Origin: Owenia fusiformis
Taxonomy: Eukaryota; Annelida; Polychaeta; Sabellida; Oweniidae
Assembly (NCBI GenBank): GCA_903813345.2
Contig: CAIIXF020000010.1
Span: 7,493,169-7,557,168, forward strand
Length of the DNA stretch: 64,000 nt
Direction: 5' to 3'
Positions 25,201 through 61,200 of the stretch are shown here, piece after piece (position 1 is the first letter of the stretch; each line of letters starts with the position of its first letter). The position numbers and the translations under genes were made by a program. The notes beneath the pieces were generated by a model, which worked only from the letters and a program-made list of their open reading frames with translations, had not been told where the DNA came from and did no database searches.

Positions 25201-28200
25201 AATTTGCAATTTGTAATATTGCAAATTGTTATACAACAATCTAGCTAGCACTGTATGATTGGTCAAAATAGGGTCACATGGCATGGAGTATCTGGTGGTT
25301 TTCAATGCCCATGCTAATCAGATAAGATATCTCTGGTCCAGATTTGGTTATAAAATGGATAAACCTCTGTCGGAGGAAAGTTTTATTTTGTTATAAAAAC
25401 ATAACGTAAAGGTGGGGACAAGTGAGATATGTGACATTTTCGCAAGATGATATTCCACTAGCCCATCAGGCTTCGTGGAATATCACTCGTGAAAGATACC
25501 AGGTATTCACATCAATAGAATGAAATATTTGTTCAATATCAAAGTAAACACCCAAAATATCAAATTATTTAAGTTCTGTAAAATCTGAAAGCAATTTTTT
25601 AAACTGAAACGGGGATGGAAATAAAAACCAATATTGATATAACCTGAAAAATATTTGTTAATTTAAATAAATATTACATTATACTTACAATTTGCTTCAA
25701 CCTTATTTATATCATTTTCTATTGTACATGTTACGCCTGGTTCATTAGAGGAGTAGCTTATTTTGTAACCAACTGCATTTGGAACAGGTTTCCACTTGAT
25801 ATGGATATATGTGGACTTTATTTCATCTGACTCAAGAGATGGAATCCCAAGAGGCGTTGCCCCCACGGTGACATCATCTGATTTTTCACCCTCACCCTGA
25901 CTGGTTAAAGCTGAGACCTGAAGAATAAAAATAAAAGAAATAGATAATAAAATGTGTATGTGTAACTTCATTAAGTCATTTAATATGACTCAGTGCATTG
26001 AGTTTTGCGCGGGATTTTATCATCTATTCAATGATTGAGGAAATAATGAATGGTATTTAAGCATAATGAAACACGTTAGTGTGCATTGCAATTGGTCTTT
26101 TTCATGAATGTGTTATATGTATGTGAAGTCACTCGGTCGTTGCAGTCAACGATGTTTCTTATATGTGAGCTGGATACTATGCACTTGATCTTCATTTTGT
26201 TTTTACTATGAAGCATGATAGCAAAGTAGCTACAACTGATTCCTGTGTAAATTGTTAAATTATTTTGATTATTTTATCTGGACCATATTTTAACGGAGTC
26301 CATTATTTTTTTGTGAACGTTGGTTACTAATGTATATTGCCGTATTCATATTGACTGGTATCAAGCTTGGGAGATGCAGCATTGGGGGAATGTGTGGTGG
26401 GGTACTTTTATATTCCTCCTTTAAGTGTAAGGTAGATCGTTTAGGCATAGATTAATGCCAATTGTTATTGAACAACACCGGGCAGCTATTGGACTATTTA
26501 ACAGATGCGCGAGCCTCGCGTCCGGGTCAATATACACGGCTTTAAAAACAAACGCCATGGTATCACTGATTAACTTATTCAAAAAAATCATGATACTTGC
26601 GACACTAAACTGTAAATTTGTCATAGTCATTCTTTTGATTATTGGAGGAATACATCCGAATCCTGGTCCCGATCGAGTGCTTGAAAACAATAAAACATTG
26701 ACTCTCGCTCACAGTAACATCAATAGCATAAAACCTATTGAGGATACTCACGAGGTTAAATTTGCCGATCTTCAATTGTTTATAGAAGAAAACAACGTAG
26801 ACATATTGTGTCTTTCTGAAACGAAATTATCTGACCAAATACCAGATAATGAGATAACCTTTTCTGATTTTCATGCGCCTTTTAGACGAGATCGCACGCG
26901 TCACGGTGGGGGAGTCTGTATTTATGTATCTGACCACTTATTTTGTAGACGAAGGCAAGACTTAGAACCACCTGACATTAAATTAGTATGGGTTGAAATA
27001 AGAGTTAGGCATCTAAAAATTTTAGTAGCCTCGTGCTATAGGCCACCCGGTCAAAATCGAGATCAAATGGAGAATTTTTTAACGAGACTCGAGCAAAGTC
27101 TGAATGTTGTAAATAATGAAAACACCTTTGGAATTTGGATTCTTGGGGATTTTAACTGTGGGTCAAACGAATGGGTTCCGGGTCATATCAATACGATTTT
27201 TGACAACGAGTTTAGCAATTTTGTAAAAACATTCAATATGACCCAACTGATAAAAGAAACAACTCGTCTTAATTATTTACGTGATCTAATCTTAACAGAT
27301 GCACCGGCTATTTCAGAAAATGCCTGCATATCTCGTCCACTTTTAAATCATCGTACTGAAGGTGACCATAGAACAATATTAACGGATATTTTGACCACAA
27401 TACCCAAGAAATCAACATTCATAAGGAAAATCTGGGATTTTTCAAATGTCAACTATAACAAACTGACTGAGTCCTTAATTTCTGCACCATGGGATGTCTT
27501 TTTTACTTTTGATGATATTGAAGATACGTGTTCAATGATTACGGACTTTCTGAAATCTACTATGCAAGATTGTATACCCAATAAAGTAGCCACTGTGAGA
27601 CCTGACGATAAACCGTGGATAAATGGATACATTAGAAAAATGAGTAGAATTAAAAACAGAGCGTTTAAAATGGCCCACAAAACGGGAAGTTTGTTAGATT
27701 GGGACATATACAAGCTTCATAGAAATAGATTGGTAAACCTGGTTAAAAGATGTAAAATTGAGTATTATGAGAAAGTATCAAACATTTTAAATGACAAATT
27801 GACACCTCCTAAAAAATGGTTCGCTGTTTTAAAACAGATATATGGTCATAAAATTAATCAAGGGGTACCCAGTCTAATTGAAAATGACATAATCTTAGAT
27901 GACGATGCTGAAAAGGCAACTGTTTTAAATAAATACTTCACTGATATGTGTACTGTTGATGAGAATCTAGCTCACTTTCCAAATAATGAAGTTAATGTTG
28001 AACAGACACTTGATTTAATAACAACAAACCCGACTGAGGTTCATGACTTGAGGTTCAAATTGAATATATCCAAAGCCGGGGGATGGGACGAGCTTCCTAA
28101 TAAATTTTTAAAACTTTGCGCTGATTATATAAGCGAACCAATATCGCGTTTATTTAATTTATCCCTAGCCAAGGGCATTTTTCCATCCATGTGGAAGAAA

Positions 28201-31200
28201 GCACACGTCACCCCAATCTTTAAAAAAGATGATCCACATATTAAAAGTAATTTTCGGCCAGTATCCCTGTTGTGTTCACTATCAAAAGTCCTTGAAAAAA
28301 TAGTGTTTAATAGATTATACAATTTTGTCAAGGATAAGATAACTTTTCGTCAATCTGGATTTACACCACTTGACTCTACAATTAATCAACTTATCCGCAT
28401 AGTTGATGAAATAAGCTTTGCTCTCGACAACGGTAAAGAAGTGAGGCTAATTTTTCTTGATATAAGCAAGGCTTTTGACAAAGTTTGGCACACGATGTTG
28501 ATTTATAAATTGAGAAAAGTTGGAATTGGTGGAAGTCTGCTAAAGTGGATCAAATGTTATTTAAAAAATCGTTTGCAAAGAGTAGTTGTCAATGGAAAGC
28601 ACTCAGACTTTTTGCCAGTTAGAGCAGGAGTACCACAAGGCTCCGTTCTTGGACCGCTCCTTTTTCTTATTTTTATTAATGATCTTGTTGACCATGTTCA
28701 GAGTAATCTTTATCTGTTTGCGGACGATTCATTTGTTTTTGAAATTGTTGAAGACTCGGATAGGACCACTGTAAAACTCCAGACTGACCTTGATAATATT
28801 AGAGACTGGGCTAATGATAACCTAATAACATTTAATGCTTCCAAAACACATACCATGACCGTTTCTCATAAACAATTTAAACCTCAACATGCAGACTTGT
28901 TCTTTGATGGTGTCAGACTAGAGTCTACAAACAAACACAAACATCTAGGGGTAATTTTTACACCCGATTTAAAATGGAATGAGCATATAACCACCACCTG
29001 TACTAAAGCCACAAAATTAGTAAATCTTATGGCAAAACTAAAAACAATACTACCTAGACAAACCCTAGATACTATATATAAACTTTATGTTAGACCAATA
29101 ATCGACTATGGTTGTGTAATATATGATAATACTTCTGAAAGGGCTAGCCAAATGATTGAGAACATACAATATAGAGCATCTTTGGTGGTCACTGGGGGAA
29201 TGAAAAAATCAAGCTATGTAAAAACAATAAACGACCTTGGATGGTCAACATTAAAACTTCGAAGAAACTACTTTAAGATTCTAATACTCGCAAAAATTAT
29301 TTATGGGAAAACTCCCAATCATTATAAAAACATTCTTCCAGGAAAGGTCTTTGACAGAACAAATTACGACTTAAGATCAGCAGGTGAATACCAGTTAATT
29401 AAGACTAAAAGTAATTTTCATCGAAACTCTTTTATTCCCTCTGTCATAAGGACGTGGAACGACCTTCCAAAAGCAATAAAAGATAAAACCACTTTTAACC
29501 TTTTCAAATTTGAATTGAAAAGACATTTATTTAATCAAAATAAAAGGTTTCAGAAACTGTATTATTGCGGCGACCGCAAAGTTAATATAATTCATGCCCG
29601 TTTTAGATTAGGCCTCATGCAACTGATTTCGCATTTATTTTCCATGAGGTTGATCGACTCTCCAAGTTGTCCCCTCTGCGGAAATGGTAATGAAACAATC
29701 ACACATTTTATCCTTAGCTGTCCATCTCTCAACGTTCAACGAAACGATCTACTAAACACGCTTAACAAAATATGCATAGACAAACCCTCGATTAGTTTGA
29801 CAACAAATCATGAAAAAGTGAACATTATTCTCAATGGGAATACTTTTCTTTCTGACGAGGAAAACAAATTATTATTCGAAGAACTCCATCGATACTTCAT
29901 TAATTCACGAAGATTGTAAAAATAATCTTATGTCTCCCAATGCTGCACCCCCCCCCCCCTTTTTACCAATGATAACATTAAATAATGTGTATGGAAAACA
30001 TTTTGTATTAGCTGATAGCTATTAATGTAATCCAATAAATATAGTATTACACAAGATAATAAAAGATAACTAGACATGTAAATTGAACAAGTTCAATTTA
30101 AGACTCCAGATTTCAAATTTTTTTCAAGCTGAGTCATCCAATTACTTATAAGCTGAGTCATTCAGAATAAGCTGAGTCAGCCAGAATATAGACATTTAGA
30201 CAACTCTTAAGAATGTTATCTTCGACTCCATTGGCGTAACATGGGGATATCATCATATCGACTTTTCAAGACTTCAAACCGCCATAACTATTTAACCAGA
30301 AGTTGGATCAAAATTTGATTTAAAGATTCGGATTCCTGAGAAAATTCTACCCTTAATCCATAACTTATACGTTAAATTTGGAGAACTTTTTATTTTGACC
30401 TACTTTTTGGACACCATGTCTCAAAAGTGGGTCAAAATACTTTCTGACGGCAAAAGGCTACCACTATTAGCATACTCTTCGCTACCTCTGCACAAAATTT
30501 CGAAGCAAATCATTTAAGTGTAATGTCAGAATCGCAAAAATAAGGAAAAACTATGAATTTGACCTAGATTTTGACCTAGGCATTTTGGTGTCCAAATTTT
30601 AAAGCTAGATAGCCTCCAAGGTCCCCTTCTTTTCTTGGCTTTCAGAATGTTAAGCTGTACTCAGTCTATATCTGGTATTTTACACTTCAAAAAAATATTT
30701 TTTCTCATTGACATAACATGGAGCACCAAATTTAGTGATTTTTGAGCTTTCAAAACGCCATAACTTCCGAACCGAAAGTCGGACTGCAATTTGGTTTGCA
30801 GATTTGGATTCCTGAGAAAATTCTACCCTTAATTCATAACTCATACGTTAAATTTGCAGAACTTTTTATTTTGACCTACTTTTCGGACACCATATCTCAA
30901 AAGTAGGTCAAAATACTTTCTGACGGCAAAAGGCTAACACTATTAGCACACTCTTTGCTACCTGTATACAAAATTTGGAAGCAAATCATTAAAATGTAGT
31001 GTAAGAATCACAAAAATAAGGAAAAACTATGAATTTGACCTAGATTTTGACCTAGGCATTTTGCTGTCCACATTTTGAAGCTAGTTGGCTTTTGAGGTCC
31101 CCTTCTTATAAAAGCTATCATTATATTAAGCTGTACTCAGTCTATATCTCGTATATTACACTTCAAAAAAATCTTTTTTCCCATTGACTTAACATGGGGC

Positions 31201-40200: not shown

Positions 40201-43200
40201 ACAATGTACAGTAGCTTAACGATGGTGTGGTTGTCATATTTGGAACAACTGTAGCTAGAAAACATAGAAGCTTAATGTAAAAAAACATGTACCAGTATGA
40301 AAGGACACAGCATGATAATTACCACAATTGAATAACAAAAAAATTCTACATGTTAAGAATTTCATTTAATGAAGCACATTAAAAATTTGAATCCAATATG
40401 TTAAATTTTGATTTGGAATGGTTTGTCTTAAATCATGCATGTACACAGGGAGATATGCCCAATATAAAATATAGTGCTAATAAAATTGATTTTTCAGCAC
40501 TAAATGAGTACTCATAGTACTAAATTAGCACTTTTGGCATGAGCGCGCTTTTGCCAGAGTGCTAATTAAGTAATAATTTTGTGCTAATTGAGTAATCCGC
40601 ATATCTCCCTGTGTAGACAGAATTTTTATCCCACCCATGATCAATCTGCTAAAGTACACAACAGCATGATATAATTATAATATAGCACTTTATAGATATA
40701 ATAGCTAATCTATGCACAGTTTGAACATCAATAATAATATTTAGCTCATTTTAAAGGGATAGAACCCAGCATTAAAGCAAGTGGGTGCAGCACCCATCTG
40801 AGATTTTAAAAACAAGGCTTTCACCCACCTGAAAATCCATTTGCACCCATTTGAAAATGAGAAAATCATAAAAAGTGGGCAAATTTTGACCAATTTTGGT
40901 CTGAATTGTGAAAATGAGAATTTTGCACCCACTTGAGAAAAAATCGTGTGGATAACACTGGAACTCATTTCTCGTTTCTATATTTTAGAGAAACCTCATG
41001 CACAATTCAATATTTAAATTGCGCATGAATAAATTAATAATCTGGAAACCAGAAAAACTTACTGCAACCACTTTCATCGGACTTATCATGGCAGTCATCT
41101 GCTCCATCACACTGCCATCTTTTGGGAATACACCTCTGGTTATGACACTCGAACTGATAATCAGCACATGTTCGGTTGGTGCACCCTTTTTCATCACTTC
41201 CATCATCGCAATCTGAATCCCCATCACATTTCCAGGCAATGGGAACGCAAGTACGCCGACTATGTTTACAGGTAAATTGGTTTGCAGCACATGTTTGTGG
41301 TGCGGCAGTAGCTGTAAATAATGTTAGTGTAAGTTAGGAATGACATTAGTCTCACATTGTGTATTATATATTAAAATGTTATGAAACATCCTGCTAGCTT
41401 TGACCTATGGGTTTTGTGTCCATAAAAAGCCAAAACTTGTTAAAAACATGTATTTATAAATTATAAATACATGTTTGAGCAAGTAGCATGGGAAGAAATA
41501 CAAATAAAATTATCACAATATGTTGTATATCAAATTACAATTTGATAATAATATTATAATAGTATTAAATTGTTCCAATTGTACTTCTATTCCACATTGC
41601 ACATCATAAATATTAACAAGACACACAGTGATAAATATCGCACTTTGAAGAGCAAACTGGCCACCATGCAATTTACCCAGCATGGCCAAAACCTAATCAG
41701 ACCTTGGCACTAGTCTGCTCTTGCATCTGTAAACATTTCAAGTTGACAAGGTTAGCGGTTTTCCTGCAATTTTGATGACAAGAATTTATTTGTAGTCTTG
41801 AACTTTGGGAAAATTTAGATAACATTGTTTGTGACCTAATTTGATGACCTTCGACCTTGAAAATTTCACTTTTTCAGACCTCAGTAGGTCTTTTGTAATT
41901 AGCTGACCTAAATTTAAATCCAAAATATCAATTTAGAAAATCAAATTTTTGACCTTTTCAAGGCCACTGAAGGTCAACGAAAGGTCAAATCTGAAATCTA
42001 AGGTCAGATTTGAACTTCTGAGAACTTGTAGATGTTTTTAAAAAAAAAATTTGGTCAATTTGGAGCAAGTTGAAAAATTCAAAATGGCCGCCAAATTGAA
42101 AAATTCAAAATGGCCACCATGTAATTCAGCCAGCATACCCAAAACCTAATCAGATCTTGGCAATAGTCTGTTCTTACATCTGTAAAAATTTCAAGTTGAA
42201 CGGATAAGTGGTTTTCCTGGAATTTTGATGACAAGATTTGTTGAAAAATTCAAAATGGCCACCACGTAGTTTACCCAGCATGCCCTTAACCTAATCAGAT
42301 CTTGGCACTAGTCTGCTATTGCATGTGTAAAAATTTCAAGTTGAACAGGTTAGCGGTTTTCTTGGAATTTTGATGACAAGAATTGATTTGTAGTCTCAAA
42401 CTTTGAGAAACTTGGATAACATCATTTGTGACCTAGTTTAATGACCTTGACTTTCGACCTTGAAAATTACACTTTTTCAGACCTCAGTAGGTGTTTTGTA
42501 ATTAAGCTGACCTAAATTTAAATCCAAAATATCAATTTAGAAAATCAACTTTTTTGACCTTTTCAAGGTCACTGAAGGTGAATGAAAGGTCAAATCTGAA
42601 ATCTAAGGTCAGATTTGAACTTCTGAGAACTTGTAGATGTTTTTGAAAATAAAATTTGGTCAATTTGGAGCAAGTTGAAAAATTCAAAATGGCCGCCAAA
42701 TTAAAAAATTCAAAATGGCCACCATGTAATTCAGCCAGCATACCCAAAACCTAATCAGATCTTGGCAATAGTCTGCTCTTGCATCTGTAAAAATTTCAAG
42801 TTGAACGGATAAGTGGTTTTCCTGGAATTTTGATGACAAGATTTGTTGAAAAATTCAAAATGGCCGCCACATAGTTTACCCAGCATGCCCTTAACCTAAT
42901 CAGATCTTGGTACTAGTCTGCTCTTGCATCTGTAAAAATTTCAAGTTGAACAGGTAAGCAGTTATCCTGGAAATTTGATGACAAGATTTGGTTTATGGCC
43001 CGCCCGCCCGCACGCCCAAACGCCCGCCCAACAGCACAAGACGACGACAATATAGCACTTTTTCAAAGTGCGATAATATCTCTGATCTTAACAATCTTCA
43101 AAAAACATAAGTAGCTGTCATGGTCTATTCTCAGGTAGAATCTGAATCTGAAATAAAAGCCAGGTACTTATGAAGGCATAAGATTTCTAAGCAGTCCTGT

Positions 43201-46200
43201 TATGTTGTCTCTTATTTTATGTGTACTCATACTAGGCATACAAGTACACACCACAGCCTTTTTACAAGTCATGGACCACTCAGTCAAACACCCTGAAGTA
43301 CTCTAAATAGTCCTGTTATGTGTTCTCTTATTTTATGTGTACTCATACTAGGCATACAAGTACACACCACAGCCTTTTTACAAGTCATGGACCACTCAGT
43401 CAAACACCCTGAAGTACTCTAAATAGTCCTGTTATGTGTTCTCTTATTTTATGTGTACTCATACTAGGCATACAAGTACACACCACAGCCTTTTTACAAG
43501 TCATGGACCACTCAGTCAAACACCCTGAAGTACTCTAAATAGTCCTGTTATGTGTTCTCTTATTTTATGTGTACTCATACTAGGCATACAAGTACACACC
43601 ACAGCCTTTTTACAAGTCATGGACCACTCAGTCAAACACCCTGAAGTTCTTTATGCAAATTAAACTGTGTATAAATATTGCTTACGAGTGGTAGAGATGT
43701 TGCAATTCATTTCATCAGAAAAGTCATGGCAATCGTCATCTCCATCACATAACCATCGTTGAGGAATACATCGTGAATTGTTACATGTAAACTGATTTAC
43801 ATTGCATGTGGGGTACACATGATCTGAAAATAAATATTATATTAGTTATTGTAGAATTTGAGATTATTTGGATATAAGGTTGTGTCATGTGGATTCTGAG
43901 CCTTCTGGTAACTAGAAAAAATTTGAACATTACATGTTAGAAATAATCTGGCAGTAGTATTACCTCCTTTTAGCAAAAACATTCATGACGTTAAGTGACA
44001 CCATATAATTAAAAATTCCATCTTGAGTCACATTTCATCTATGGCATCTGACGGCAGCCATATATAGGGATAAGCATTTCGAGGTAGATTTTTCTGTATC
44101 AATTTCGTCAAGCTATGGCTGCTCTATCATATAATATGATAGAGAAATCATGCCAGACCTATCAAATATGATGTCTTTCTGACATTTCAAAGCAGGAATA
44201 GGATTAACCTATGAATTTTTAAACACCTCTTTCAATTTTGTTGACAAAAATTGCAGCAGTAAAGAACAGTAAAATCTGTCAAGTGGAACACCTCTTTAAG
44301 TGGAACACTTTTTACCTCGTCCCATGACCCATTGACTAAATGTTATTGAACTTCTACAAGTGGAGCACCTCCATATGTGGAACACTTTTTACAGTTCCAT
44401 GACCCATTGACTAAATGTTATTGAACTGCTACAAGTGGAGCACCTCCATAAGTGGAACACTTTTTACAGTTCCATGACCCATTGACTAAATGTTATTGAA
44501 CTTCTACAAGTGGAGCACCTCCATAAGTGGAACACTTTTTACAGTTCCATGACCCATTGACTAAATGTTATTGAACTTCTACAAGTGGAGCACCTCCATA
44601 AGTGGAACACTTTTCACAGTTCCATGACCCATTGACTAAATGTTATTGAACTTCTACAAGTGGAGCACCTCCATAAGTGGAACACTTTTCACAGTTCCAT
44701 GACCTGTTGACTAAATGTTATTGAACTTCTACAAGTGGAGCACCTCCATAAGTGGAACACTTTTTACAGTTCCATGACCCATTGACTAAATGTTATTGAA
44801 CTTCTACAAGTGGAGCACCTCCATAAGTGGAACACTTTTCACAGTTCCATGACCCATTGACTAAATGTTATTGAACTTCTACAAGTGGAGCACCTCCATA
44901 AGTGGAACACTTTTCACAGTTCCATGACCTGTTGACTAAATGTTATTGAACTTCTACAAGTGGAGCACCTCCATAAGTGGAACACTTTTTACAGTTCCAT
45001 GACCCATTGACTAAATGTTATTGAACTGCTACAAGTGGAGCACCTCCATAAGTGGAACACTTTTTATAGTTCCATGACCCATTGACTAAATGTTATTGAA
45101 CTGCTACAAGTGGAGCACCTCCATAAGTGGAACACTTTTCACAATTCCATGACCCATTGACTAAATGTTATTGAACTGCTACAAGTGGAGCACCTCCATA
45201 AGTGGAACACTTTTTACAGTTCCATGACCCATTGACTAAATGTTATTGAACTTCTACAAGTGGAGCACCTCCATAAGTGGAACACTTTTCACAATTCCAT
45301 GACCCATTGACTAAATGTTATTGAACTGCTACAAGTGGAGCACCTCCATAAGTGGAACACTTTTTACAGTTCCATGACCCATTGACTTAATGTTATTGAA
45401 CTGCTACAAGTGGAGCACCTCCATAAGTGGAACACTTTTCACAATTCCATGACCCATTGACTAAATGTTATTGAACTGCTACAAGTGGTGCACCTTAATA
45501 AGTGGAACACTTTTCACAATTCCATGACCCATTGACTAAATGTTATTGAACTGCTACAAGTGGTGCACCTCAATAAGTGGAACACTTTTCACAATTCCAT
45601 GACCCATTGACTAAATGTTATTGAACTGCTACAAGTGGTGCACCTCAATAAGTGGAACACTTTTCACAATTCCATGACCCATTGACTAAATGTTATTGAA
45701 CTTCTACAAGTGGTGCACCTCAATAAGTGGAACACTTTTCACAATTCCATGACCCATTGACTAAATGTTATTGAACTGCTACAAGTGGTGCACCTCCATA
45801 AGTGGAACACTTTTTAGGGGAACAAGGTGGTTCCACATGCACAGACTTTACTGTATGACATCAAAATCTAGCAAATAAACTCTAGTATGTTTGGTTCGCA
45901 AAAGGGGCTCAGGATTCATTGGAAAGATCTATTACATACCACATCCTCTCTCATCTGATCCATCAGCACAGTCATTGTCGTGATCACATTTCCATCTTGA
46001 GGGAAGACAGCGACCTGAATCTTCGCAACGAAACTGTTCTGGCTGGCATGAATTATATGCTGCAAAAGAAAAAAAAACATGTTACTCTGCAAACATAGCA
46101 TCTTACATAGCATCTTACATTTGCTTGATTCAAATTTGATAATGGGTCTATTCATGAATTTAATGTCACAAATAAATATTTTTACTATTGAAATCGATGG

Positions 46201-49200: not shown

Positions 49201-52200
49201 GAACATCAAAAAAATTGAAAGAAAAAAGCTGTTTTGAGGGCCAAAGGACAATTCTCGGTTTGGAGAACGAAGTTCATCAATCTAAATGAGCATTATCCCT
49301 GCTTCGGATAAATTTGATTTTTTTTACATAATATAGATTTGAATGTCTTCTTTTGAATAGTCATAATTTAATTTGGGTAATATTTCCAGATTTTTCGCAA
49401 AAAAATATTAGCGCAGTACACTGATGAACTTCTTTCCCCAAATCGAGACTTGTATTTTATTGAATCTGTCTAATTGAGCGTTATCCCTGCTTCAGACCAA
49501 TTTGTTATTTTTACATCTTGTAGATTTAAATGTCCTCTTTTGAATATTCATAGTTTAATTTGGGTAATATTTCTATATTTTTCATGAAAAAAATTATTAG
49601 CCCAGGAGACTGTTCTCCAAACCAAGAATCGTCCTTTGTGAAAATATAAGATTTTCTTGTTTCAGAACCGAACCAAAATTTTGAATTTTGTTCAGTGTTC
49701 ATTTCTGAGTGCCTATTTCTATGGGACCCCGTTATTCCATTGTTTACAGAGATAAATGAACTTTTTGAGAGTTATATTGACTATTAGCCTGCTTATAAAT
49801 GGTAATTTACATGTGTAAATTGTTTTTAATAGGAGGAATGACTATAATGCCATCTATATTTTGTATTCAAATCACTGCTTGTTGAATCATTGCCAAGATA
49901 GACGTCCTTGGTTGAACAAAGTTTTCATTGTCACTTTCCATAAAAGGTAATTTTGTTTCTAACACTAATACATGGCAGTTCACGGCCCGGTGTAAAGTCC
50001 AATCAGAATGCTCTGCTTCATCATGTGACAAAATATTGAAAATGTCTATACGGACTGAATAAATATCCGTCGTTAATTGACCGATTGTTTCTGCGGCGTC
50101 TCACAAAACTCTGCGGGCAACAGCCAGGAGGAGCAATATTGAGAGGGAACTCAGCTGGGGTTTATTTACACAGTGGTCAGTTAAATCAGGCAGATTTATC
50201 AAAGTGAGGTAGGAACAATTGGAATTTTGTGAATCAAGATGCAAAGTTTTTGAAGCCACAAGCTATCTAAAAGAGTGGTACCCATCAATAAAGGCACCAA
50301 ACAAAGCTCATGTACTGAGCATTTACTCCATTTATTAATCCAACCTCTAACCAAAAGTATTAGATACATAATTCTGCAGGTTCATGAATTCATAAGATTA
50401 CTACGATACTAATAATTTAATTCAGGCCATCCGTAAAGAGTTGATGATTTCGCTATTGTTCAAGGCACAATTATATACAATTATTGACCTCTCCAGAGGT
50501 TTACTGTCAAAATTATATCCCGAGACTGTAAACCGAGACCGTAGGTCGAGGTTTACAGTAGAGGGATATAATTTTGACAGTAAACCGAATGGAGAGGTCT
50601 ATAATTGTTTTGTTAGTCCGAAGAATATCTTAGATTTTTCTGACCCTTGAAGTTGACTTGAAGTTGGATCCAGACCCTCGAGACGTTCATGTTGTATTTC
50701 AGTATATCGGCAGTAAGTTCACTCAATGGAGTCAAATTACTCTCCTGGGCGAAGTCCACTAAAAGCTTTGTACAAAGTTTTAGATTTTTCTTCATATTTT
50801 GACTGTCTTTACTCTCTAAGAGACTAATAATATCCTCATCTTAAACATTTTTGAAACGGCTAGTGCTAGCGGCGGCCATTTTATCGTCTGATAATGACGT
50901 CATTTTAGTGGAATGCTGGGAATATTATTCACCGGCAATGCATTGCGCGGTGTACAGTTAAAATTATTCACCCCTCATTGACCAATCAAAATCGAGTATT
51001 TCAACTGAGGTACTAACAAAATAAATTGTAACTTACATTTTGAGCTTGATACCCACTAGGGTGTCTAGCGGCTTGTTTTTATAGTGTATATTATATAAGA
51101 ATTATTAAATAAATTGAATTGAATTGAAATTAAATTATTGAGTGGCACATAAGAAGTGCTTAATGGAGCCTACAATCTAAATATCTATTAAAGGTATTGT
51201 TTGAGATATTGTATTGCTTGAAATGAATACCTTGTTGAGTCGCTCTATGCATTATCTTCATGTCCATGATACCCCTCAGTCCTCGTTTGAAGTACTCCAC
51301 ATGGCCAACATACTTATTAGATGTCATAATAGCTGCCTTGTTCCAATCAGTCCAGTATACAGAATCCTAAAATATAATGTTTCACTCATGTATTTGCTTG
51401 TTTCAGTATTTTTTCATTGTTTATTTTGTTTATTTGTTTATTTATTTATTTTTTCATTTTCTGTCAAAGAGTCAAAGGTAAATCAGATTTATAGAGTGTG
51501 ACAATTTGCAAGCAACTTGGACAATTCTTATGATCTCAAATAAAATATTACTCAAAAGATCTGTGATATGTTATCTCTTGGCGATGATTCAATGTGCAAA
51601 AATGGGAAAAAATGTTTTAATTCTCCGAAATGTGGTCACCACAGTTGGAGACTATAACAATATGTCATCACTTCTGGTAGTGACCTAATACAGATCTCAA
51701 ACATGAAATATATCTCATACAAAAGAATAAAAATAACCTTGGCTTGTATACACAAATGAAATACTGTAAAGTTGCTAAAATGAAACTTAGTATAGTAGAT
51801 TTACTTATACAAACTGGAATTTTGTCATACCTTGTATACAAAAAAATGAAATGTAGATTTACAAAATACAAAGAAATGTAATAAATAGAGATTATCCTAT
51901 ATGAGGTTCAGGATATTGGGATTATCCCGAGGCAAATATAATATATTTGCCCGAATATATTATATTGGCCAAGGGATAATCCCAATATCCTGAACCGACT
52001 TTAGGATAATATGTTTATCCCATACCAATCTTGTGTCATCTGGTTAACATTGTTCAATCATGGAAATATTTTAGAATACTCATGTCCAGTTTTGTTTTCT
52101 TGGCCGTTGGCGGATTTTCCTGTTCTCTCAAATATTCCCATATTTATTTTCTCTAATTTTTGATTGATTAAGTGGATGCTCCTTCCCTTTTTTAAACCAT

Positions 52201-55200
52201 CAAACAGATCCCGATAGTCTGTGTTTTCTCCATTGTCGTTTACAGTCATTACGCGAACGTTACAAATTATGAACAAATATGCGAGCTGCGATTATGACGT
52301 AGCGGGCAGATATACTATATCTGCCCGCTCGGAGCGGGATGTAAAGCTATATCTGCCCGCTGATGAAAATATAAGTTTTTACAAACCGGCTTTATGTACC
52401 TGTAACACGTCCAAGTATGGGATAAATAGCCATACCCTGAATACGGACATGGCATACGGATTCATAAATATGAATAAAGTACACATTTACTTATAATACA
52501 AAATGGAATTTATATTATAAGTCATACCTTATAAACAGAAATGGAATACGGATGTGGAACATTATAGCTACCACTGACGAGAATAACCCTATTCTGTCCG
52601 TTATAATCGCTACTCATAATTCTGTCTAAGTGTGCATCTGTCCACCATATTTTCTCTGACTGGAAGTCTATAGTAATACCATTGGGCCAATAAACATTTT
52701 GCTTCCCCGAGACAATCGTTCTGTTGTTGGTTCCATCGAGCCAAGCCTTGGAGATTCTTGGATTAATGACTGACCAGTCTGTCCAGAAAAAATACCTACA
52801 TAACAGAAATAGACACTTATGAATAAAATTCAATAGCCTATAATCATCTTCCTATATGGTTTTCCTACTAACAACCAAATTTCCATATTTGTTGTGAATG
52901 AAACTAATTTATATTATGAAATTTATATGAAAGTAACTCTTTTAAAAATTAATTCATTTTTGACGCTTGTAATATTCCTAAACTTCAGCTAAAAATTCAC
53001 ATCTTTAAGTCAAACAATCATTTCCTAACATTCAATAATTACAGAAAAGAAAGTTGATGTCTGTGTCTATTATCATGAATTACATATTCTGTAAAACCTG
53101 TTGGTACCTCCAAATAGTGTTCCACTTGGGAGGTGTTTCACTTATAGAGGTTCATTTTACAATAAATTATTTGGCAACAGAACTTTAACATGTGTTCCAC
53201 TTAAGGAAGTGTACCACTTACAAAGGCGTTCCACTTATAGAGCTTCATTTTACAATAAGTTATTTGGCAACAGAATTTTCAAATGTGTTCCACTTATGGA
53301 AGTTTACCACTTACAGATGTGTTCCACTTAACAGGTTTAACTGTATTTCAAGGTTATCAAGGATACGAACTACAGCCGTGACCCCCTTAACTTACCCATG
53401 TACTGGATCCAATACTATGGCCCTTGGTTTATCTGTGATGATAGAAGACTGCCAGACTTTACGCCGGAATCTTCCATCAAGTCTACGAAGAAAAGTCAAC
53501 AATTTCAAAACAAAAGTGTTTTAAGAGAATTACAAAACCATTCAAAGGGATTAAATGTCTGAACATTTGTTCTTTATTCAGAGTAAGCAATGTCAAAAAC
53601 ATCCCAAACCATCATTTTTCAAATTCATAGCATCTCAAATGATGTAAGGTCATTTTCAAATCCTTATCACAAGTGATAGAGGAAACAGACTTTGACATGG
53701 GAAATGAAGAAATCTTTAAAGTATCAATTTTGGGTGGGTGAAATAATACTGAGGATTTTTCAAGCACAATGTTACCATGAAAATAACACTCAAACATGTA
53801 CCTTGACATTTCAATCTTCCTCTTGCCCCCATCCACCCAGTATATATTTCCACTCATCCAATCCAGGGCCAGACCTTCAATTGAAGTTATTTCCCCTGCT
53901 ACCAAAGTCTCTGCAGCACCATTCCCATCCAGGCACTTTCTCTGTGAACACATTGTTGTCAACAGCATTACAAGGTGTTAAAACATTTATATGTGTCACC
54001 CTTTTCAATAATGTGGCACATTTTCCATTTGATAAATTGATGACTAGCTAGATATTCCATCTATAACAAGATTATCCAGTGAATTTCACTAGAAAAATAT
54101 GAAGGCAAAAGCTGCGGGGCCATAACTGTATGTTAATGGAGAAAACCATGAACCGCAATGATCCACAGACAGCAATCTTTAATGCATGTTTTGTTGTTGG
54201 TTAGGTAACATGTTAATGACATCACATATTAACATAAAATCAATAAAAATGTTTGACATAACGATTATTATTTGTTTGTTCATAGTTGCTCGATGGAGTA
54301 AATATGTCACTGACGTCATATTTTTTTGTGATACGTCATATCTCGAATCACGATCACATCATTTGACGACTTGGCAGTTGCCTTGAAGATCTGCAATTTA
54401 ACCTAATAAAGGCGGGACTTAGTTCACGTGAATGGTCCTACCCGGCCCATAGATCTATAGAACGAAGGGTACCACCCACTTTGTGAGGGGCCTTCGTAAA
54501 AAACTATGCAACAATCAAAAATGTTCATGAGGCCCAAACTTCATTATGTGTACTGAGTAGCTGAATTCTTTCATTAAAAAAGACCCTATATGAAGGCCAT
54601 TTAACATGGAATGAACAAGAGAATTGTCAAGAGAATGAAATTAAACATGAATGCCATTGATACTGGATAAAAGTAACATTTAAGTATCACGAACTCAAAG
54701 ACCTCCCAAAGACACTACAATAAGCATTATACTTACACTTATGTTATCATAGTGAGAATCTGCCCAATAGAGACAGTTAAGTTTGTAATCAAACTCAACA
54801 GCAATAGTCCGACTAAGACCCCCCTGTAATAGCATTGTCCTGTTGTTACCAAATATGGTCTCATAGATGGCAGTACGGGTGGTGTACAGTAGGAACTCTT
54901 CCCTTTCTGAAATAAAATAAATAGTACCATGGGCACTGGGCTCACATGGTGTTGCTCAAAAGTGAATGATGGCTAAAATGGCAGAAAATAAAAAATGGAT
55001 GTAATTTTTGCTGACTTTTTATAACAAAATTATTTCATACAACTACTCTTTACAGTGACATGGCTTTTTACAATGCAGGACAGAGGTTTAAAGGCAAATG
55101 GTCGAAAAGTGGATTTCGTGAGACAGATGGACAAACGAATGTAAACTAAAATGGCAGAAAATAAAAAAAATGGATAAATTTTTTTGCCGATTTTTTGTTA

Positions 55201-58200
55201 CAAAATTATTTCGGGAATCCTATTGACAGAGGTTTTAAAACTGGCCAATTGTTGACAGATGGACAGACAGACAGATGGACAAGTGAGTGATTGCAATAGC
55301 TCACCATGTGAGTTAATAAATAAAAATACACAAAAATATACAATCTCTTCACAGTAAAAGAGGCCTCTAAAGGACATGGTTTGTATATTGATGTTAATCC
55401 ATTAACTAGGTTTGATAGAGGACTAAAAGTTTATTTTGTTTTGATAGTTCTCACTGACTTCTGTTCTATAACTGAACTAACCTGCTACTGGACAAGACAG
55501 AATATCTGGGTTATATCTATGTTCCTCGCCACCTTGACATTTATCACCTGACACTTTGCGGTATCTAAAACAGAGAAAGTTATGACATTCAGTATAAACT
55601 CATTCATCAAACATAACAACAACATTAACGCAAGTGTTTCACTGGAATTTTCAGACGTAAAAACAAGGCATTAACATGCATAAAATCACTAGCTGCCTTT
55701 GTTACAGACGCCAAATGCCAACCGCTGAACACCAACCGCCCAATGCCAAACACAGTTCACAAAAAAGTTGGAAACTATAATAACAATATCTCACTACCAT
55801 TATAGACCATTTAAAATGTGAAATGCCTGATTCCTACCCTCTGGTCCTGTTATAATAGGCTCCCTCATGACAGTAGCCTGGTATAGCATGTGTGTCTATA
55901 GTTCCACATTCATCATTATCCTTTACACACTCAGAGCTCCATTCTTGTTTCAGCTTGAAGCAAAAGTCACTGGAATAAGATTAAGAGAATATGAAACTAG
56001 ACTCCCTGAAATAGCAAAAGTCACTGGAATAAGATTAAGAGAACATGAAACTAGACTCCCTGTAATAGCAAACATCACTGGAATAAGATTAAGAGAACAT
56101 GAAACTAAACTCCCTGTAATAGCAAAAGTCACTGGAATAAGATTAAGAGAACATGAAACTAGACTCCCTGTAATAGCAAAAGTCACTGGAATAAGATTAA
56201 GGGAACATGAAACTAGACTCCCTGTAATAGCAAAAGTCACTGGAATAAGATAAGAGAACATGAAACTAAACTCCCTGTAATAGCAAAAGTCAAGAACATG
56301 AAACTAGACTCCCTGTAATAGCAAAAGTCACTGGAATAAGATTAAGAGAACATGAAACTAGACTCCCTGTAATAGCAAAAGTCACTGGAATAAGATTAAG
56401 AGAACATGAAACTAAACTCCCTGTAATAGCAAAAGTCACGAGAATAAGATTAAGAGAACATGAAACTAGACTCCCTGTAATAGCAAAAGTCAGTAGAATA
56501 TGATTAAGAAAACATGAAACAGGACTCCCCGTAATAGCAAAAGTCACTGGAATCAGATTAAGAGAACATGAAACTAGACTCCCTGTAATACCAAAAGTCA
56601 GTAGAATAAGATTAAGAAAACATGAAACAGGACTCCCCGTAATAGCAAAGATTATCAAGATTACAATTTTTATGAATCCAATCTGTCAACTGGTGTTTGA
56701 GTTATTGCTTGTGCAGACAAATGAGCAGACAGACAAATACAAGACGAAAAACTTCTCTATATCCAAATCTAAAGAAGTTTTGTGGGAAAATAAGGCCCCC
56801 TTTTGACAATTTTGTATTTTTCATCTGTACAAACTCCGAGCTCCATTACTATTTCAGAATCTGAGGAATCTAACTATTCTTACCATTCAAAATCAACCCT
56901 AGAACATGGGCATGGTGAGGTAGAGATCTCCCGATCATAGTCACGTCCATTGTAGCAAAGAGAATGAGTACGTCGTCTTTCATATGTGACTTTCTCTCCA
57001 AGGAGACAGGAACTGTATACACCTGCATAGGCATCCCCGGGAGACCAGTCTTTGTAATCATCAGCTACACATTGGGTGCCTACAGAATGTTAATTTAAAT
57101 GTGTTTTAGTATTCTATACTAAGATTGTTATCAATGTGTAATGTATTTTCAATTGCGTATTAAGTTTCAACATGTGTACCATTCTGGATAATAAGATATT
57201 TTTGGATGATTGAGTTTGTACTACAGGAGTGTGATTGGTTATTCAATATTTAGTACTTTTTCAATACTGTGTGGAAACAATTACTAAAGTGCTGATGGCT
57301 CGATTAAAGTGTGGAGCTGGGTAAAACTTTAGTAGGCTTTGCTTCATTGATGGCTAACAAAATACAATGCAATACAATACAATACAATACAATACAATAC
57401 AATACAATACAGTACAGTACAATACAATACAATACAATTCAATAGAATGCAGGAATATCTAGTCTGTCGAGCGGGATAATTGTCACATATTAGTGTCAGT
57501 ATAATAACTAACCCAGTACTTGCTGTAGATTGATGGTCACTACAAGCCAGCTGTGTCTGGATGGATTGGACCCAAACAATGTGAAGATAGTTGTTTTCTC
57601 CCCAGGTTCTGTTAATAGACCGTAAATGTGGATCTTGTAGGGGCTGAATACATAAGATGTCCATGTCTCTCCCTCATTTAATGAATATCTGCAATTACAG
57701 AAGTCCATATTTGACAGCAGGTCTATATAACTTACAGTTACAATCTACTCTAATAGGATAAAATCAAATGCTTAACCATAACAAGAAAAAAATTACTTAA
57801 AGGAATATTCCTTGCCAAACCATCTCTCTCCTCATATGGTAGCTATAACCATATATATGCTTGCCATGTTTAGCAAAACACGCAAAAATGTTTTGATATG
57901 GTCAAATTTGATCACTTAGAAATGTGATGCTCAATTCCAGTAAGCTGCCATCTTTTAAAATTTCACACAGGAAGTGATGTCATCGACTCTCAACTTTGCA
58001 TATAGCATGAGGTGAGGAGCTATTAAGAATTACAAAACCAGCTAAATATTCTTTTTCAACTTTGTATCTTATTTAATCCTTCTGAAAATCTCTTCTTTTA
58101 TTCTAAGTTGACAAGCCCTGAAAATATTTTTGCACAGAAAGTAATGGTCACTTGTCTAGAAGTGATTTTGTGCTACTTTCCTATACTGTTATGGGCAAGG

Positions 58201-61200
58201 TTATAGAAGTTGAGAGTTGATGACATCACTTCCTGCAAGAAATCTTAAAAGATGGCAGCTCACTGGAAATAAGCACTAGATTTTTAAATGATCAATATTG
58301 ACCATATTAAAACATTTTCCCATGTTTTGCTAAATATGGAAACTATATATATGATTATAGCTACCATATCAAGAGAGAAAGGGTCTGGCAAGGAATATTC
58401 CTTTAAGCCTTTTCTGAATATACATGTTTCCCAATATTAGTGTTTTACTATTGCATGGGCCAGGTCATTATATTAATGCCATTTATGCAGAAAATTGTAA
58501 TAACATGTACTGTAGACGTCATTATTAACGCAGAGGTAAATTTTCACGCCTTTTATAAATTCGTTAATTTCGCGTGTTTATATTGTCGCGCTGATTCCAC
58601 TTCTGTATAAACAAAATAAATAAACTTGCGAAAAATCGCCATATATTCGCAAAGCATCTTGGGAGTTTTCTGTGCACTGAAACTAAGCCAATTACGCATG
58701 GCAGTCAATCAAATAAGCATGTTGATTACACATTTTGAGCACTGTATTGCACTGATTGCAGGGTTAGTTCTAACACCGATGTTAATTTTGAACTTTGACA
58801 TGTGAGTTCAGTGCGCATGTGTGAAGTGAAATTAAGATGTTTGAGATCGTTTTTCACTATAAATAACAACTTTGTGCATTACTATCTTATGATTATGCGC
58901 GCACCTACAAACTATGATGCAACATAGGGATATGAGGGGTTAGTGCCACAGACTTACAGAAAATCAAAAAAATCATTTTTTCGTAATTTTTTCAGATTTT
59001 TTTTCAAGACAACTATCCTAATTATTCGCAGGTTCTTTTTTCGCGGATGGAGGGCATCCCGCGAATATAGCTAAAATATACACACCGGGAAATTAAAGAC
59101 GTCTACAGTAGTCTCAGACCACTGAACCTTCTCAACACAAAAAATGTTTTTTCTTTTTAGTGGTTGACATGACTTTTTACAATAATGAACTAATACCTTG
59201 GGATTAACATGCAAAATATCACTACCAGCCATTTGCTACAGACACCTACTGTAGATTGCTGACTGTTCCAAGCACCAATCACCAAATACAATAAATGAAA
59301 CCCCTGCTCATCTTCAAACATTTCGTGATAAAAACACTGATATTTTGACACTGCCTCTTGATAATTTGAATCTAACGCTGAACATTTAATTTTTTCTTAC
59401 TGCGAAACAAAAGCTGAAATGATACGAGTGAATCAACTCAATTCTTACTATACCTTATTTCGTTTGTAGACCCATTCTGTTTTGCTGCCACTATAACTCC
59501 TCCATGGTCACCAAATGCATAGAAATACTGGCCTTTCAATACCTGAAACAAAGAAATATGATCAACTGAATGGTGTAATACTACTCAGTAATTCAAATGA
59601 ACCAGGCTAGTCACAGGAACACCTTTTTGCATATACGCCTTAAAATATCTAAAATTAATACATATTGCAAAACAGTTAATTTACAGTTTCTTACCTCATT
59701 CCATCTGTAGCCGCCATCATTAGATAGATACACATCAAACTCAGTTTTCTTAGATATCGTTGTGTTAGTTGTACCTGTAGCCATTATAAGACCAACTGCA
59801 GACTTCTTGGAGAGAATGGGTATAGTTCGTGTTCGTGGGTAAAACTGCTGTAGTTTTTGACTGAGATGTAAGCTGCAACCGTGCCACTGAAACATCAAAT
59901 TATCAGAATTGATGTTGAGATGAAAGGGTGGGATCAAGAGGATTCCTCAAAATAAATTCCTTGATTTGGAATTGTGCAACACCCTCTCATTTTGATCAAA
60001 CAAACAAATCTTACAAGAAAATTCATAAATTCTATCCACACATTAGAATTGAATTTGGACATGGCTATTCAGTGGCCCATTCATAAAACACCTATCTCTA
60101 TTCATCTTGCATTACAAATCACAACCACCTTTGTCCTTTTAACTACATTTGGACAACTCACCGAATGACAATGTTTTGGTTGTTTATTACTATCTAATCT
60201 TGGTGCAGAGAGTTTCTGCCATAGTGCTCCTTTATCATATGTTATAACAGTGGTGACATTCACAAAGTCTCCTGTGGTACTGCTATAATTCCCATCCACT
60301 TGTGATGCTATAAAGATGCCTTCCAATCCCTCTACTTTGTGTATATCAGCAAACGGTTCTTCAGCAAAGTACCTATGTAGGTAAAACAACATGTCTCAGA
60401 TGTGTCCATAAAAGAGATTTCGTTATTTCATTCGATAAATGTTTGAACTTGTAGTACTTATGTGGTGATGAGTATGATTAACAAGGCACAGACGTGAACA
60501 ATATCGTACCTAAAACACAGCAGTGTGACAGTGAAGAATTTGGGACGGAAAATCCAAAATGGCCACCTTAAAATTTACCCAGAATGCCCAAAAACTAATC
60601 AGTTCTTAACTTTGATATGTAGAAACATCCCTGAAATTTCAGATGAATCCGTCAAATGGTTTGGCTGGAAACCTGTAGACAAGTCTTGAAAGTGAAGATT
60701 TTAGGACGGAAAATCCAAAATGGCCACCTTAAAATTAACCCAGAATGCCCAAAAACTAATCAGTTGTTAACTTTGATACGTAGAAACATCCCTGTAAATT
60801 TCAAATGAATCCGTCAAATGGTTTGGCTGGAAACCTATAGACAAGTCTTGAAAGTGAAGATTTTAGGACAGAAAATCCAAAATGGCCACCTTAAAATTTA
60901 CCCAGAATGCCAAAAAACTAATCAGTTCTTAACTTTGATACGTAGAAACATCCCTGAAAATTTCAGATGAATCCGTCAAATGGTTTGGCTGGAAACCTGT
61001 AGACAAGTCTTGAAAGTGAAGATTTTAGGATGGAAAATCCAAAATGGCCACCTTAAAATTTACCCAGAATGCCCAAAAACTAATCAGTTCTTAACTTTGA
61101 TACGTAGAAACATTCCTGAAAATTTCAGATGAATCTGTCAAATGGTTTGGCTGGAAACCTGTAGACAAGCTGAAAAGTGAGACGCCGCCCGCCCGCCCGC

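Follow-up and report, generated by a model that had tools for sequence, protein, structure and literature searches.

A 54-bp minisatellite that repeats a splice acceptor of a SORL1-like gene in the annelid Owenia fusiformis

Minisatellite-like duplications of intron-exon boundaries were described in amphioxus as 'mirages' (PMC3087553). The genes concerned are Adh3, BflGb6, BflGb9, and TnC, with imperfect repeats in PGBD5 (PMC3087553; PMC3902484), the troponin C and PGBD5 repeats being described in PMC3902484. One acceptor-side mirage differs between haplotypes, with 6 units in one and 3 in the other; Adh3 data together with globin RT-PCR suggest undisturbed splicing (PMC3087553). The VNTR in intron 18 of human ABCA7 includes a splice donor; exon 19 skipping and reduced expression are correlated with the length of this VNTR (PMC5954066). 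Among the titles listed in literature searches that were mostly not directed at annelids, none concerned a boundary minisatellite in an annelid. The text of PMC9977687, which describes a developmental RNA-seq series of Owenia, does not name SORL1, sortilin, or minisatellites.

The array presented here was identified in an intron of a minus-strand gene in a window of Owenia fusiformis DNA (the whole stretch analysed, 64,000 nucleotides). In keeping with an annelid, the genome gave three matches to the erythrocruorin linker family, one of them with an internal stop; a COX1 search of it gave no match. Judged from its sequence, the gene is SORL1-like, and the SORL1 label of the preliminary description was borne out by Pfam matches and by the ranking of solved structures. 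The three exons joined across 57079-55482 match Pfam Sortilin_C with an E value of 2.6e-27. Sortilin-related receptor chains 3wsy, 3wsx, and 7vt0 are the top three solved-structure matches, with sortilin and SorCS2 chains ranking lower. Downstream of the 10CC exons, a motif scan gave nine matches to LDLR class A repeats between 37717 and 46882, every one in the orientation of the gene (minus strand); 41037-41333, the single LDLa stretch scanned, matches Pfam Ldl_recept_a. A YWTD-like pattern has three minus-strand matches at 51163-54955, but three more elsewhere on the plus strand, and the one such stretch scanned (54698-54955) gave no Pfam match. A single FN3-like match in the window was seen by pattern alone. 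Other repeats also lie at this gene: two of its LDLa exons flank an array of 75-bp units (about 20 copies, 96% match; 44280-45814), a 116-bp array of four copies (43186-43647) adjoins an LDLa exon, and a LINE-like open frame of 1162 codons with endonuclease and reverse transcriptase domains (26431-29916) runs opposite the gene on the plus strand. Coordinates of the features at the array are listed in Table 1.

Table 1. Features of the SORL1-like gene around the 54-bp array (positions in the window)
Feature	Position	Strand	Remarks
VPS10 exon	59614-59946	-	Pfam Sortilin-Vps10; upstream of the 10CC exons
Upstream exon, first part of 10CC	56884..57079	-	ends in TG (phase 2), followed by GTAAGA
Intron, 914 nt	55970..56883	-	about three quarters is array
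54-bp tandem array, 13 units	55959..56649	-	11-base overlap with exon; TRF and cutting by unit
Eleven CAG/GGA acceptor-like sites, stretch	56006..56584	-	G at 56583, 56475, 56421, 56367, 56313, 56275, 56222, 56168, 56114, 56060, 56006
Eight CCAG/TGA decoy acceptors, stretch	56024..56548	-	G at 56547, 56385, 56331, 56240, 56186, 56132, 56078, 56024
Authentic 3' splice site AG	55970..55971	-	TTATTCCAG+TGAC (cut between); reading frame, paralogue junction; score 5.80
10CC exon, 132 nt	55838..55969	-	phase 2 on both sides, followed by GTAGGA; first 11 bases common with array
Next exon, third part of 10CC	55482..55564	-	end read from sequence, before GTTAGT

At the real junction, the exon ending at 56884 joins the exon 55838-55969 in phase 2, as TG/T. 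The preliminary description had claimed a tandem array that copies this splice acceptor about 12 times, and both its coordinates and its count were right when checked with TRF and by cutting the array into units; the nine exon bases that it placed in the repeat are corrected to eleven. The array totals 691 bp in 13 units, eleven of them 54 bp long, one 53 bp, and one 38 bp. Its last unit is the genuine junction, made of the intron 3' end and 11 exon bases, and the copied exon 11-mer TGACTTTTGCT is exact at 11 of the 13 unit positions, the real junction included. Among the 12 upstream junction copies, CCAG/TGA is intact in eight. The AG is gone by substitution in three (TTCTAC twice, TTCTCG once), and one more was lost by a 16-bp deletion. 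In ungapped comparison, seven of the eight intact decoys match the real junction at all but 2 to 5 of 57 bases, so the likeness is not due to chance; the remaining decoy, 56240, contains a 1-base indel, which precludes an ungapped comparison. A second acceptor-like site, CAG/GGA, is present in 11 of the 13 units and was absent from the preliminary description.

Pairwise identity of the units ranges from 81 to 100%. Inner units 6, 10, and 12 are identical to one another, while edge units 1 and 13, like some inner units, carry non-consensus changes. A variant that recurs at every third unit marks units 5, 8, and 11, and units 1 and 3 have a set of changes in common. For the array, TRF gave a period of 162 bp besides that of 54 bp. 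The spacing of the variants and the 162-bp period form the pattern expected if two or three units were exchanged at a time, and this pattern, together with the 16-bp deletion, suggests that array length may vary between individuals. The array would have begun as a tandem duplication of a 54-bp segment (the intron 3' end with the first 11 exon bases); slippage or unequal exchange, involving several units at a time, would then have expanded it inside the intron. That its copy number is an artefact of assembly is highly improbable: tandem arrays are prone to mis-sizing, but several units carry their own variants in an order not easily made by stutter or collapse, and an array of 691 bp should fit within one long read.

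The direction of copying can be read from a paralogue on contig C5, found in the 10CC family search. It has an intron of 194 nt at the same codon and in the same phase 2 (DFE-TG/T-GAT). The junction is therefore most likely old, predating the array, and the array a derived copy of it. The exon segment that was copied carries a change of its own. The conserved Gly of CDFG is replaced by Cys (CDFCF) at 55960-55962, the third full codon of the 10CC exon and inside the copied 11 bases, and the Cys-making base is identical in all 13 units. The Gly of CDFGF is retained in the solved SORL1 chains; chain 3wsy, which we take to be human SORL1, aligns ECDFGFK to ECDFCFK of the Owenia gene, and the paralogue has CDYGY. 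A second extra Cys (DEC) was noted in the same exon, and the 10CC region here has 12 Cys, compared with 10 in the aligned SORL1 chain. With two extra Cys, a new disulphide is possible.

A genome search with a 23-base core of the unit placed all ten of the places with at most one mismatch, among the matches listed, within the array. With two or three mismatches, matches were dispersed in the genome. In total 86 matches were listed, 11 of them in the array, and the reversed core as control gave three; an excess of this size would favour the arrival of the array with an inserted dispersed repeat that ended at the exon by coincidence. Such an origin is scarcely credible and was rejected: of about 75 dispersed copies listed, four were retrieved, and in each of them the similarity extends no further than 23 bases, within a low-complexity stretch. 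Moreover, the peptide encoded by the copied exon bases can be aligned with solved SORL1 chains and the paralogue. The dispersed low-complexity stretch may belong to the coding region of a retroelement, to judge by its appearance.

Strength of the acceptors was scored with a model built from LDLa acceptors of the Owenia genome, with the array site left out of the training set. Of 119 LDLa stretches, 105 were not joined to another one upstream, and 67 of these had exactly one phase-1 AG candidate; after one exon-internal site (from L021) was dropped, 66 acceptors were kept, of which 65 are distinct. The model spans a window of 23 bases, with the branch point and exon signals outside it, as does the earlier model mentioned below. 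The training set consists of LDLa exons alone, with C at position +1 in 41 of 65, and several of them are tandem-duplicated relatives and so not independent. Real acceptors left out in turn had a median score of 3.76, and 6666 other AGs in the window a median of -6.19. The authentic site at 55970 scored 5.80, the 68th percentile of the left-out acceptors.

The eight CCAG decoys scored 3.36, 5.79, 8.52, and, five times, 5.80, the last five sharing the 23-mer of the real site exactly. CAG/GGA sites scored from 4.27 to 7.23, nine of the 11 above 5.80. Compared with the real site, ten of the 19 decoys are higher (the nine CAG/GGA sites and 56240), five are equal, and four are lower (56547, 56186, 56583, and 56060). 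Every one of the remaining 24 AGs of the array (TAG, GGAG) scored below -5. An earlier model of 37 acceptors, 35 hand-picked and two from neighbouring acceptors of the SORL1-like gene, was replaced by the automatic set; it gave 3.45 for the real site, as for the five copies identical to it, and 5.06 to 7.40 for the CAG/GGA class, with 12 of the 19 decoys above the real site, five equal, and two lower. As both models agree, most decoys are not weaker than the real site. Intact units had been described as ready-made decoy acceptors, and locally the predicted scores uphold this, with 15 of 19 decoys equal to the real site or higher. Under the model, local signals give the real site no advantage over the decoys.

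When the upstream exon was joined in silico to each decoy, a premature stop followed in all 19 cases, as had been expected of decoy use in the preliminary description. Its more exact prediction of a TAA within about 14 codons holds for seven of the eight CCAG decoys, with the stop at codon 14 after the junction codon, and fails for 56331, where the stop is at codon 31. Over all decoys, the stop falls between codons 8 and 108, counted after the junction codon, and in no case less than 112 nt before the exon 3' end. The exon frame is preserved by ten of the decoys and shifted by nine, which are upstream of one or both shortened units. Premature stops are linked to nonsense-mediated decay by the 50-nt rule, and transcripts spliced to decoys are candidates for decay because of the distance of their stops from the exon 3' end.

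A minisatellite of the mirage kind, most likely tolerated, is the favoured reading (probability about 0.7); on this reading, the exon-proximal AG at 55970 most probably still serves most transcripts. Splicing would pick this AG in most cases, and some leakage to the decoys would be removed by nonsense-mediated decay. We propose that 55970 is preferred because only the real copy has genuine purine-rich exon sequence directly after it: past the shared 11 bases, the exon has 62% purine and 3.3 GAA per 100 nt, compared with 37% and no GAA in the array. In experiments with duplicated splice sites, the adjoining exon sequence reportedly decides the choice. The purine-rich exon is the likeliest reason why the real site would win, an argument drawn from general knowledge of splicing and from the purine count. 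Counting against a preference for 55970, the decoys are transcribed earlier than the real site. The support lent by amphioxus splicing comes from other genes and from another animal group, and would apply here by analogy.

A length-dependent attenuator, in which decoys capture splicing and SORL1 output falls through stop and decay as the number of units rises, is unlikely, even with five of the eight CCAG decoys carrying the real site's 23-mer, ten of 19 decoys scoring above it, and all 19 stopping far enough upstream of the exon 3' end. ABCA7 offers a donor-side precedent, in which VNTR length tracks exon 19 skipping and lower expression, but its cryptic donor lies one repeat unit in and is used independently of VNTR length (PMC5954066), and amphioxus mirages reportedly leave splicing undisturbed (PMC3087553; PMC3902484). 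The dosage switch suggested in the preliminary description is made less likely by the amphioxus copies, which are reported to splice normally (PMC3087553; PMC3902484), and is favoured, by analogy, by the effect of ABCA7 VNTR length on splicing (PMC5954066). Quite unlikely is a tunable bank of poison acceptors, in which 19 decoys compete with one real site so that the number of units determines what fraction of SORL1 mRNA is productive, and in which the first codons of the real exon were themselves altered as the array was homogenised. Very unlikely, too, is selection that has been clearing decoys from the array. It would account for the loss of the junction AG in units 1, 3, and 4 (units 1 and 3 are also without ACAG and CTAG), which leaves three of the four 5'-most units without the AG of CCAG, and one further unit lost its junction by deletion. 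But no significant excess of AG-destroying changes was found across the array units: AG columns took four of 17 distinct changes in eight of 54 columns (p = 0.24), and the AG columns of the two strong acceptors three of 17 in four of 54 (p = 0.13). Moreover, units 1 and 3 are related copies, and eight CCAG and 11 CAG/GGA sites persist.

Within the 66 LDLa acceptors, a small sample and not an independent one, no boundary minisatellite was found. Two of the 66 fall in TRF arrays, both in L036 (4822-5619 and 7606-8472), and these are tandem copies of about 290 bp, each of which, judged from translation, holds a whole LDLa exon with its intron. L036 lies in a large LDLa cluster on C1. With its 20 acceptors of similar local strength, the Owenia locus offers a natural test of how the spliceosome chooses its site. 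Use of the decoys would make SORL1 dosage depend on repeat number; were they unused, the choice would be decided by sequence beyond the 23-base acceptor window.

Among known minisatellites with repeated splice sites, that of human 6-16 (IFI6) reportedly provides multiple splice donors; it resembles the Owenia array in the repetition of splice sites and differs in being on the donor side. The ABCA7 VNTR likewise takes in the splice site of a flanking exon, but on the donor side and with a 25-bp unit, and its length polymorphism and effects on splicing were measured in human (PMC5954066). The amphioxus mirages share with the Owenia array the tandem minisatellite-like units across an intron-exon boundary and a splice AG or GT in many, not all, units (PMC3087553; PMC3902484), and BflGb6 shares the acceptor side (PMC3087553). 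Their hosts are cephalochordates, whereas the Owenia array is in an annelid, and their units are about 150-160 bp in BflGb6 and BflGb9 and 10-72 bp in Adh3, compared with 54 bp. The second acceptor-like site sets the Owenia units apart from those of the mirages; regular splicing and length variation are reported for amphioxus, and the Owenia array is known from the sequence of one haplotype. On three features of its sequence, namely tandem units across the boundary with the authentic junction as one of them, a splice AG kept in many but not all copies, and units that are highly alike, evolve in concert, and are distinct at the edges, the Owenia array fits the mirage kind, and boundary minisatellites would thereby extend from lancelets to an annelid.
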